Assembly: GCA_021299875.1 (NCBI GenBank)
Contig: JAJTEW010000002.1
Location: forward strand, 186,001-250,000
DNA length: 64,000 nucleotides
Reading direction: 5' to 3'
DNA from: Comamonadaceae bacterium
Lineage (GTDB): Bacteria > Pseudomonadota > Gammaproteobacteria > Burkholderiales > Burkholderiaceae_C
The translations under genes and the position numbers were made by a program. This document shows, piece after piece, positions 292 to 3,507 of the stretch; position 1 is the stretch's first letter, and each line of letters begins with the position of its first letter. The notes beneath the pieces were generated by a model. That model saw only the letters and a list, made by a program, of their open reading frames with translations, made no database searches and was not told the DNA's origin.

Positions 292-1719
292 ATGTCCGGT
301 ATCAACTACAGCGAAAAAATTCCCAACAACGTCAACTTGAGCGAAGACCGCACCTTGCAACGTGCGCTGGAGCAATGGCAACCGAACTTCATCAACTGGT
401 GGGACGACATGGGCCCCGAAGGCTCGACCGACATGGATGTGTACCTGCGCACCGCCGTGAGCGTGGACCCGCAAGGTTGGGCTCAATTCGGCCACGTGAA
501 AATGCGCGACTACCGTTGGGGCGTGTTCATGAACCCCGGCGAGCAAGACCGCAAGATCCATTTTGGCGACCACATCGGTGAAAAAGCTTGGCAAGACGTG
601 CCTGGCGAGCACCGCGCCAACCTGCGTCGCATCATCGTGACCCAGGGCGACACCGAGCCCGCATCGGTCGAGCAGCAACGCCACTTGGGCCTGACCGCGC
701 CCAGCATGTACGACCTGCGCAACCTGTTCCAGATCAACGTGGAAGAAGGCCGCCACCTGTGGGCCATGGTGTACCTGTTGCACAAATACTTCGGCAAAGA
801 CGGACGTGAAGAAGCCGATGCTTTGCTTCAGCGCAACAGCGGCAACGAAGACAACCCCCGCATCTTGCAGGCCTTCAACGAGAAGACACCCGACTGGTTG
901 AGCTTCTTCATGTTTACTTACTTCACTGACCGTGACGGCAAGTTCCAGTTGTGCGCCTTGGCCGAGTCGGCATTTGACCCATTGGCCCGCACCACCAAGT
1001 TCATGCTGACCGAAGAAGCGCACCACATGTTTGTGGGCGAGTCCGGTGTGAGCCGTACCATCCAGCGCACCGTGGATGTGATGAACCAGCTCAAAACCGA
1101 TGACGTGGGCAAACTGCGTGCAGCTGGTGTGATCGATCTGCCCACCATCCAGCGCTACATCAACTTCCACTTCTCGGTGACCATCGACTTGTTCGGGGCT
1201 GACGAGTCGTCCAACGCGGCCACGTTCTACAGCTCGGGCCTGAAAGGCCGTTACGAAGAAGGCAAGCGCACCGACGACCACGTCTTGAAGGGCAACAGCT
1301 ACAAGATCTTGTCGGTCGAAGATGGCAAGTTGGTCGAAAAAGAAGTGCCGATGCTCAACGCTTTGAACGAAGTGCTGCGCGACGACTACATCACCGATTC
1401 CAAGGGCGGCATTGACCGTTGGAACCGTGTGATCTCTAAGGCTGGCATTCCCTTCACCTTGAAGGCACCTCACAAGGCTTTCCACCGCAACATTGGCTCT
1501 TTGTCTGGCTCCAAGATCACGCCCGAGGGCCGTGTGGTGACCGACGAGCAGTGGATGGCGCAAGTGGGCGAGTGGTTGCCCACCAACGAAGACCGTGCCT
1601 ACGTGGCCAGCCTGATGGGCCGTGTGGTTGAGACCGGCAAGTTCGCCAACTGGATCGCGCCCCCCGTCATGGGCATCAACCGTCAGCCCGTGGATTTTGA
1701 TTACGTCCGGTTCAACTGA
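292..1719 (+). CDS. boxB: BoxB, benzoyl-CoA 2,3-epoxidase oxygenase subunit
   Basis: 475 residues, the usual BoxB length. BoxB is a soluble diiron epoxidase that inserts oxygen into benzoyl-CoA using electrons from BoxA. Visible iron-ligand motifs are E152-x2-H155 (in EEGRH), an acidic FTDRD segment near 211-215, and E242-x2-H245 (in TEEAHHMF), spaced as in characterised BoxB. The ATG at 292 has GGAGA at 282-286. It lies 90 bases after boxC and is separated from boxA by 465 bases that contain three long hairpins. No signal peptide, so cytoplasmic. Product call is firm from length, motif spacing and neighbours. Confidence 0.95.
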   Translation: MSGINYSEKIPNNVNLSEDRTLQRALEQWQPNFINWWDDMGPEGSTDMDVYLRTAVSVDPQGWAQFGHVKMRDYRWGVFMNPGEQDRKIHFGDHIGEKAWQDVPGEHRANLRRIIVTQGDTEPASVEQQRHLGLTAPSMYDLRNLFQINVEEGRHLWAMVYLLHKYFGKDGREEADALLQRNSGNEDNPRILQAFNEKTPDWLSFFMFTYFTDRDGKFQLCALAESAFDPLARTTKFMLTEEAHHMFVGESGVSRTIQRTVDVMNQLKTDDVGKLRAAGVIDLPTIQRYINFHFSVTIDLFGADESSNAATFYSSGLKGRYEEGKRTDDHVLKGNSYKILSVEDGKLVEKEVPMLNALNEVLRDDYITDSKGGIDRWNRVISKAGIPFTLKAPHKAFHRNIGSLSGSKITPEGRVVTDEQWMAQVGEWLPTNEDRAYVASLMGRVVETGKFANWIAPPVMGINRQPVDFDYVRFN

Positions 1720-1761: not shown

Positions 1762-1839
1762 GCAGTCGTCAAAGGCAGGGGCGGGTTCCTCATACTGGGG
1801 TACCAGAAATCGTCACCCGCCCCTGCCTTTGACGACTGC
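1762..1839 (+). repeat. Structured palindromic element, copy 1 (25-bp perfect stem)
   Basis: Left arm 1762-1786 and right arm 1815-1839 are perfectly complementary over 25 bp, enclosing a 28-base loop. The loop contains TCAT, then an inner hairpin CTGG-GGTA-CCAG (1795-1806), then AAATC. The same loop design with different stems recurs at 1920-1997 and, inverted, at 2063-2124. There is no T-run after the right arm, so a simple intrinsic terminator is unlikely. Confidence 0.9.
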
Positions 1840-1919
1840 ATGGGGTTTGTCGCAGGTTTTTGTTTGATCTGGACCACCCGTGTGCTTGCAATTCGAATTT
1901 GCTGCCTTGATGGAGGGCG

Positions 1920-1997
1920 GTCATTAAAAGGGCAAGGGGCGGGTTCCTCATGACGGGGTACCGAAAATCGTCACCCGCCCCTTGCCCTTTCAATGAC
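1920..1997 (+). repeat. Structured palindromic element, copy 2 (25-bp stem, one mismatch)
   Basis: Arms 1920-1944 and 1973-1997 pair over 25 bp with one mismatch (A1926 opposite C1991). The 28-base loop has the same length as in copy 1 and differs from it only in two small patches. Those patches form the inner stem, which here is CGG-GGTA-CCG. The outer stems of copies 1 and 2 differ away from the loop yet each stays self-complementary. Confidence 0.9.
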
Positions 1998-2062
1998 ATG
2001 GGTGTGCCGAGCGATCAAGGTCCCTTAGACTCAGGGCGTTGAAGCAGGCATTGAGCGGCGGT

Positions 2063-2124
2063 ATGGCTGGGGGCCGGGCACCGATTTTCCGGTACCCCGT
2101 ATGAGGTGCCCAGCCCCCAGCCAT
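2063..2124 (-). repeat. Structured palindromic element, copy 3, inverted (20-bp stem)
   Basis: Arms 2063-2082 and 2105-2124 pair over 20 bp with one mismatch (C2075 opposite A2112). Read on the minus strand, the 22-base loop runs TCAT, then an inner hairpin CGG-GGTA-CCG, then AAAATC, matching the loop core of copies 1 and 2. The stem sequence is almost unrelated to the other two apart from being purine-rich on one arm. It lies 60 bases upstream of the boxA start. Confidence 0.88.
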
Positions 2125-2184
2125 TCCGTTGCGGACCACGCAGACCACAGACTGAAAACGCTAAAAATACAAGAGAGCCAAGAC

Positions 2185-3507
2185 ATGAGCACCGAAGCGA
2201 CGCTGATCAAACAACACCTGATCGACCCGGAAATCTGCATCCGCTGCAACACCTGCGAAGCGATCTGCCCAGTGGGTGCGATCACGCACGACTCGCTCAA
2301 CTACGTGGTCAAGGCCGACATCTGCAACGCTTGCATGGACTGCATCTCGCCTTGCCCCACAGGCTCGATTGACAACTGGCGCATGGTGCCCAAGGCCAAG
2401 GCCTACAGCATCGAGGAACAACTCAAGTGGTATGACTTGCCCGCCGAATTGAGTGCCGAAGAACTCGCTGCCGCTGGTGGCGACGCCAATTCCGATGAGG
2501 CCATGGCGCAAAGTGTTGCGCAAGCCGCCGTGCAAGCCGCCTCTTCTTCGTCATCTGCCGTCAGCACAGCCTCCGCCTCGGGTTTCAACTCGGCCCAATT
2601 TGGCGCCACCATCCCGCCCTGGTCCGCGGCCCACCCCTACACCAATCTGTATGGCCCCAAGGCCGCTGAGAAAACCATCACCGCCACGGTCACTGGGAAC
2701 CTGCGCGTGACCGAAGTGGGCAAGCAGGAAGGTCAGCAAGACTACGACACGCACCACATCGTGCTGGACTTCGGCAGCCTGCCCTTTCCTGTGCTCGAAG
2801 GCCAGTCGATCGGGATCATTCCACCCGGTGTGGACGCCAACGGCAAACCGCACCATGCGCGTCAATACTCCATTGCCAGTCCCCGCAACGGCGAGCGCCC
2901 CGGCCACAACAACCTGTCGTTGACCATCAAGCGCGTGCTGGAAGACCACGACGGAAAGCCGGTGCGCGGCGTCGGCTCCAACTTCATGTGCGATTTGAAT
3001 GTGGGCGACAAGGTGCAGGTGATCGGCCCGTTCGGCGCCAGCTTTCTGATGCCCAACCACCCCAGGAGCAACATCGTGATGATCTGCACCGGCACGGGCA
3101 GCGCCCCCATGCGTGCCATGACCGAATGGCGTCGCCGCCAACGGGCCAGCGGCAAGTTCGAGGGGGGCAAGCTGATGCTGTTCTTTGGCGCTCGCACGCC
3201 CGCCGAGCTGCCGTATTTTGGACCACTCAACAACTTGCCCAAGGATTTCATCGACATCGAATTTGCTTTCTCGCGCGAGGTGGGCAAACCCAAGCGCTAT
3301 GTGCAAGACGCCATGCGTGTTCGTGCCGCCGACTTGGCCCACCAACTCCAAGACCCCAACACCTGTTTTTATGTCTGTGGCCTCAAAAGCATGGAGGAGG
3401 GCGTGGTCATGGCGCTGCGCGACATCGCTCAGAAAGCCGGGCTCGATTGGGATACCGTAGGTGCGGCGCTGAAAAAAGAAGGCCGTTTGCACCTCGAAAC
3501 CTACTGA
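2185..3507 (+). CDS. boxA: BoxA, benzoyl-CoA epoxidase reductase subunit
   Basis: 440 residues from ATG 2185. BoxA passes electrons from NADPH through FAD and iron-sulfur clusters to BoxB. The N-terminus has two [4Fe-4S] ferredoxin motifs: C18, C21, C24, C28 and C47, C50, C53, C57. An Ala/Ser-rich linker (about 95-145) leads to a ferredoxin-NADP reductase-type module with the FAD-binding RQYSIASP segment, the nucleotide-binding CTGTGSAP segment and [12 protein letters not shown] near the C-terminus. An upstream in-frame start at 2101 falls in hairpin 3 and is not preferred. The ribosome site before 2185 (AGAGAG) is weak. The next gene starts 7 bases downstream. Confidence 0.93.

Follow-up and report, generated by a model that had tools for sequence, protein, structure and literature searches.

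Three hairpins lie in the spacer between boxB and boxA of a Comamonadaceae benzoate degradation locus. They have a common core, and their stems differ in sequence. The locus raises the question of what keeps such stems paired while their letters change, and of whether the folded form is RNA or DNA. We followed the hairpins outward from a window of 64,000 nt, the whole stretch of DNA analysed (contig JAJTEW010000002.1, positions 186,001 to 250,000), in which the relevant features are:

292..1719, plus strand: boxB, benzoyl-CoA 2,3-epoxidase subunit BoxB, the upstream neighbour (NCBIfam TIGR03225, 890 bits against a cut-off of 499.1)
1762..1839, plus strand: element E1, 25-bp outer stem 1762-1786 / 1815-1839, core TCAT-CTGG-GGTA-CCAG-AAATC at 1790-1811
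1920..1997, plus strand: element E2, 25-bp outer stem 1920-1944 / 1973-1997, core at 1948-1969
2059..2128, minus strand: element E3, 24-nt outer arms 2059-2082 / 2105-2128, core at 2083-2104 on the minus strand
2185..3507, plus strand: boxA, benzoyl-CoA 2,3-epoxidase subunit BoxA, the downstream neighbour (NCBIfam TIGR03224, 729 bits against a cut-off of 459.2)

The identities of BoxB and BoxA rest on NCBIfam equivalog models. The three hairpins claimed by the initial annotation are real: their arm pairing was measured, and the core pattern TCAT..GGTA..AAATC has three occurrences in the window where 0.02 would be expected, and none of 100 shuffles reached three. The annotation had placed the array at 1762..2124 with outer stems of 25, 25 and 20 bp. 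Its start stands, and E3 reaches slightly beyond its end, to 2128, with its core on the minus strand. A repeat search of the window gave the 25-nt arms claimed for E1 (100% complementary) and E2 (96%), and arms of 24 nt (92%) for E3. No tRNA or tmRNA was found in the window, and no Rfam family matched there at its gathering cut-off; with a lax threshold only microRNA-hairpin models appeared, far below their own cut-offs.

The core pattern occurs nine times in the same genome, against none for a reversed control pattern, and a long outer stem surrounds eight of the nine (the exception is C13:457633). The inner stems covary as had been claimed, CTGG/CCAG against CGG/CCG in the window, and further variants occur elsewhere, among them GGCG/CGCC and GTGG/CCAC. 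When eight copies were aligned, 22 of the 27 predicted pairs showed changes on both sides in some copy. A covariance model built from the eight matched at least 13 distinct places in the genome (opposite-strand readings of one place counted as one). Its search found the further copies that the initial annotation had suggested looking for. Within the genus, at an E-value of 0.1, relatives turned up in at least 88 of the 90 genomes, with none for G071 and G078 among the matches listed. At the different threshold of 0.001, they were present in at least 47 of 399 genomes and at least 25 of 141 genera of the family, and in at least 4 of 398 genomes of the phylum, all four inside the same family; all these model-search counts are lower bounds. 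The titles of records with stem-bearing elements name Limnohabitans, Rhodoferax, Polaromonas and further Comamonadaceae or Burkholderiales, apart from a few that look out of place. Three contigs titled Cryomorphaceae or Akkermansia (L112, L127, L148) match the core pattern, and these titles are probably wrong. Carriage by viruses was considered and rejected: 45 exact pattern matches look like chance, since their arm duplexes (strongest −28.0 kcal/mol among the 33 of 45 loci scored) were no stronger than apparent chance matches in unrelated genomes (−29.3 and −32.8 kcal/mol).

How far the pairing is maintained was measured on 277 distinct elements with full arms, reduced to one per cluster. These gave 62 clusters, of which three with fewer than 14 paired cells were dropped, and the best of three arm offsets was chosen for each element. 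In the 59 usable representatives, Watson-Crick pairs made up 93.1% of stem cells, against 30.4–38.2% when one arm was slid by 1–3 positions, and both-sided changes numbered 439, against 48–86 in the slid controls. Outer stems that differ and yet stay self-complementary, noted at first for three elements, are therefore a property of the family, and the selection on structure that had been proposed comports with covariation so far above the controls. A wider set was defined by a stem score of at least 12, which admits 195 of 288 distinct core matches, inflates the percentage paired and is neutral to A·C versus G·T; in 151 of these 195 elements the outer stem ends 25–29 nt from the core.

Across many genomes the design is the same: a conserved internal loop has a variable inner hairpin on one side and, on the other, an outer stem of about 25 bp that varies from copy to copy in both arms jointly. 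The loop sequence, on the strand identified below as the folding one, is 5'-CGATTT ... ATGAG-3'. At 20 loci from 16 other genera, CGATTT was present in all 20 and ATGAG in 19 (L486 lacks it), and the inner and outer helices were quite different among these loci. Judged from its letters, the folding-strand loop has C-G, G·A, A·G, U·U and U-A as possible oppositions. That the loop is a kink-turn was ruled out by hand, since the outer three nucleotides are fully paired in E3-type copies. In one copy (L020:1501-1579, at C4:463782 in the same genome) the inner hairpin is swapped for another small palindrome, ACTCGCTTCGCTCGTAG.

Mismatches within the stems reveal which strand folds. Read on the core strand, the 59 representatives contained 66 A·C mismatches, 3 G·T and 21 others (binomial 2e-16); an earlier clustering had given 45, 4 and 14. 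Young copies in four related genomes showed 34 A·C against 7 G·T, and this set of 105 copies was admitted by RNA duplex energy, a filter that favours G·T and so opposes the reported excess. Because an A·C on the core strand reads as G·T on its complement, the complement is the folding strand, the one that tolerates wobble pairs. At the box locus the A·C:G·T cells were 18:3 for E1 and 6:0 for E2, both with the core on the plus strand, and 12:3 for E3, with the core on the minus strand; tallied by distinct event, the ratios were 5:2, 5:0 and 9:2, small numbers in an unchanged direction. We rejected a mutation bias of the replicating or transcribed strand as the source of A·C, because E1 and E2 are opposed to E3 within one operon, and in each of the three A·C prevails on the strand that carries its core. 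The strand bias follows the element's own orientation, and a replication or transcription bias would not flip with the element.

A functional RNA, too, tolerates G·U on just one strand, and the main rival to the reading we prefer is that the hairpin works as structured RNA. It would form in transcripts of the folding strand, and the conserved GAUUU/AUGAG internal loop would bind a protein that affects how stable neighbouring transcripts are or how they are processed. Pairing preserved at fixed sites genus-wide, such as between boxB and boxA, agrees with this, but the folding strand of E1 and E2 is antisense to the box genes, and the window has no Rfam matches. Genomic context, taken from a home-made codon caller, speaks more generally. 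Among 45 cluster representatives, those between codirectional genes had the folding strand antisense in 12 cases and sense in 9, no preference relative to transcription; the rest were between convergent genes (9), between divergent genes (3), inside a called gene (5) or unclear (7). Neighbouring elements within 800 bp had their cores outward in 43 cases, inward in none and in tandem in 13, orthologs counted. An outward pair would yield one folding-strand hairpin whichever way it is transcribed, as suits an RNA, but the core is found in both orientations at one and the same orthologous site, and again within a single uvrA reading frame, which does not. Altogether we regard the RNA reading as unlikely. 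In the spacers between two sets of paired elements (L028, L040) we noticed other inverted repeats, resembling what we take to be the classic REP repeats of pseudomonads.

The uvrA copies bear also on the more ordinary possibility that the hairpins are intrinsic terminators or stabilise 3' ends. Many copies do lie 15–60 nt from a gene boundary according to the home-made gene calls. But no terminator-like site was found at 1600-2300, the common core is unlikely by chance, copies are located between the divergent genes queC and recQ, and three copies in both orientations stand in frame within one reading frame of the same genome that matches UvrA models. The intragenic copies refute terminators as the only account, and we consider this explanation highly implausible. 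The frame itself (L272:173-6199, contig C2) is UvrA-like, about 2000 codons long and made of two UvrA-sized halves, with the hairpins in linkers; UvrA models cover its first half. The insert in the first linker is absent in G004 and in Limnohabitans Jir72. In another uvrA linker (L162), one of the two in-frame hairpins of relatives is gone, its stem base remains and the frame is kept.

The box spacer offers a view of the same elements across species. Of 55 loci tried, 40 spacers were readable by motif; E1 was present in all 40, E2 in 20 and E3 in 38, and their stems vary between species, both arms together. Among 30 species with a full boxB gene, E1 occurs mainly in two paired block states, one in 22 species and the other in 7, with a single further case and nothing intermediate between the two. 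On a poorly resolved boxB tree the states are patchy, at 7 changes against 7.2 when shuffled. In two spacers (L097, L109) hybrid elements combine the left arm of one box element with the right arm of the other; judged from their arms, these look as if they arose by recombination between neighbours. On the upstream side of boxB two loci (L081, L089) have a different palindromic repeat (GCGTCATCGCGAGC...), by eye like a CGTC-type REP dimer. Box copies keep their pairing genus-wide, long after any insertion, and mobility alone does not account for that.

Signs of mobility are nonetheless seen at other sites. The mobile palindromic family proposed in the initial annotation finds its support in dispersed copies and in presence or absence at orthologous sites. 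Four related genomes are rich in model matches, with at least 33 in G027, 30 in G076, 26 in G033 and 25 in G044. Four sites of one contig carry nearly identical copies of a paired unit, in which two hairpins with cores outward enclose a short spacer. These sites are not wholly independent contexts, since a half TIR (terminal inverted repeat) is common to the left side at three of them; the right flanks differ. In relatives the paired unit is absent at one site (L450) and reduced to its ends at another (L459); at a third, the flanks align poorly. In a second sub-family the hairpin sits in the middle of a TIR element starting AATTGGGGTCAGATC. Among the 105 distinct copies of the four genomes, the TIR is on both sides in 50, on one side in 8 and on neither in 47; it accompanies only 16 of the 195 elements of the wider set. 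At E1–E3 there is no TIR, and we read these three as old resident copies. Two orthologous sites, S1 and S2, show the same TIRs in relatives with different stems and both core orientations. At S1 one genome (G019) has a bare TIR palindrome; in another (G088) the core is gone from S1, and an unrelated loop stands at S2. In these sequence comparisons of genomes no exact target duplication could be defined, and no transposition was seen.

The changes at S1 and S2 suggest that template switching in replication, in which one arm is copied onto the other, might alone keep the arms complementary, with no function and no dedicated enzyme. Its described products include arm homogenisation and spacer inversion (PMC8604942). 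Both were found at S1 and S2, and the two fully paired block states of E1 with nothing between them fit as well. However, template switching leaves unexplained the CGATTT/ATGAG loop conserved at 19 of the 20 other-genus loci, the strand bias that tracks element orientation at E1, E2 and E3 alike, and the spread to new sites. As a sufficient account we find it quite improbable.

A candidate enzyme for the spread is a Y1/REP-type transposase (L334:1171-1866, minus strand). Within the genus, 85 of the 90 genomes have one to four Y1_Tnp matches each; correlating Y1 gene and element across the genus was uninformative, both being almost universal. The Y1 protein of the genome studied here passes the Pfam Y1_Tnp model and scores 76 bits with NCBIfam REP_Tyr_transpos, below the cut-off of 80. 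Around the Y1 gene at 30 loci, GGGGTCAGATC-type repeats were on both sides in 26, on one side in 1 and on neither in 3, and this repeat is the outer repeat of the TIR hairpin sub-family. The linked transposase that the initial annotation had proposed as a check was thus found in part: a Y1/REP-type gene has the outer TIR of one sub-family, but no hairpin element lies beside it, within 1.5 kb, at any of the 30 loci. Lacking the TIR, E1–E3 are tied to the Y1 enzyme only through the shared core.

Taken together, the hairpin family in Limnohabitans and related Burkholderiales is a dispersed palindromic DNA repeat, REP-like and partly mobile. Its copies and its covariation extend far beyond the first three elements, and terminators alone do not describe it. 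For its spread, the mechanism we judge most likely, with a confidence just on the favourable side of even, is that the REP-type (Y1) transposase moves it as a folded single strand. The Y1 enzyme would move the hairpins, the moving form would be single-stranded DNA, and the G-A-containing loop would serve as a putative protein-binding site. Template switching or conversion of whole hairpins may rewrite the arms, which probably stay complementary through selection on folding plus copying of one arm onto the other. A stronger version, which we put forward tentatively and hold to be possible though doubtful, is that this is mobile DNA inherited by shape: sequence would be kept only in the short G-A-containing loop CGATTT/ATGAG on one defined strand, the helices would be continually rewritten in both arms jointly, and a single-copy Y1 enzyme would read the folded strand and not its sequence. 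Such a family could alter almost every letter with its identity intact.

Covariation is usually read as a mark of functional RNA, and here its source is a DNA palindrome that is dispersed and partly mobile. The clean strand bias, by revealing the folding strand, opens a route from sequence alone for weighing RNA, single-stranded DNA and template-switch homogenisation against each other. The analysis also names a candidate enzyme and its substrate; if the Y1 enzyme does move the folded strand, the hairpins are a test case for a repeat inherited by shape and not by sequence. Families like these can be missed or split by searches for sequence identity.

We found no paper describing the hairpin family in Limnohabitans; the nearest, among the matches listed, was on the beta-proteobacterial repeat element, BRE. 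These elements are described as 75–91 bp long, GC-rich and mostly intergenic, with some intragenic or tandem, in Bordetella as well as in Comamonadaceae, Polaromonas and Rhodoferax among them; they were found by sequence identity, and the accessible portion of the paper gives no structure for them (Hot 2011, PMC3110155). Compared with that description only, our family may overlap BRE. The RepRanger paper, in its available part, names none of the genera tried (PMC12306157). Rickettsia palindromic elements, as cited in PMC3733652 and likened here by description only, are likewise palindromes in frame in genes.

The GTAG- and CGTC-tagged REPs are short palindromes, mostly intergenic and often in inverted dimers, with stems of 5–13 bp and a 4-nt tag at one end; some are inserted in larger palindromes, and intragenic copies include uvrA (Di Nocera 2013, PMC3733652). 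The accessible portion of that paper names none of Polaromonas, Rhodoferax and Acidovorax, the Comamonadaceae genera searched for. Our hairpins are like the tagged REPs described there in being palindromic, in forming inverted pairs, in nesting within larger palindromes and in their uvrA copies, and unlike them in having an outer stem of about 25 bp with no fixed sequence and, as the conserved part, an internal loop. CGTC-tagged REPs have an unpaired CGTC (or TGTC, CCTC) at one end, a stem of 8–9 bp starting with AT pairs, a loop of 4–5 and a CCA tail (PMC3733652). In many of our copies the inner hairpin has CCTC before it and CGTC after it on the core strand, both inside the outer stem and not at an element end. 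Our inner stem is 3–4 bp with a variable loop, and the outer about 25 bp. In the eight-copy alignment the CCA tail is absent, and neither end has a conserved GTAG, the tag that GTAG-tagged REPs carry at the hairpin foot.

The preponderance of outward neighbours (43, against 0 inward and 13 in tandem, orthologs included) and the one dispersed paired unit are what a REPIN-like doublet, two inverted hairpins moving together, might show; solitary hairpins are also common. Within one genome REPIN ends generally keep their sequence, unlike the arms of our hairpins. REPINs are miniature mobile DNA made from REP doublets and linked to a Y1 enzyme (Bertels and Rainey 2011, PMC3116915). The arrangement of a REPtron, a RAYT gene flanked by its own REPs, is absent at our 30 Y1 loci, none of which has an element. 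A different likeness is to TIRYT, Y1 genes that have TIRs with the motif GGGGWSAS on both sides, as outlined in PMC3733652: the GGGGTCAG repeat fits this motif, a TIR match limited to one hairpin sub-family.
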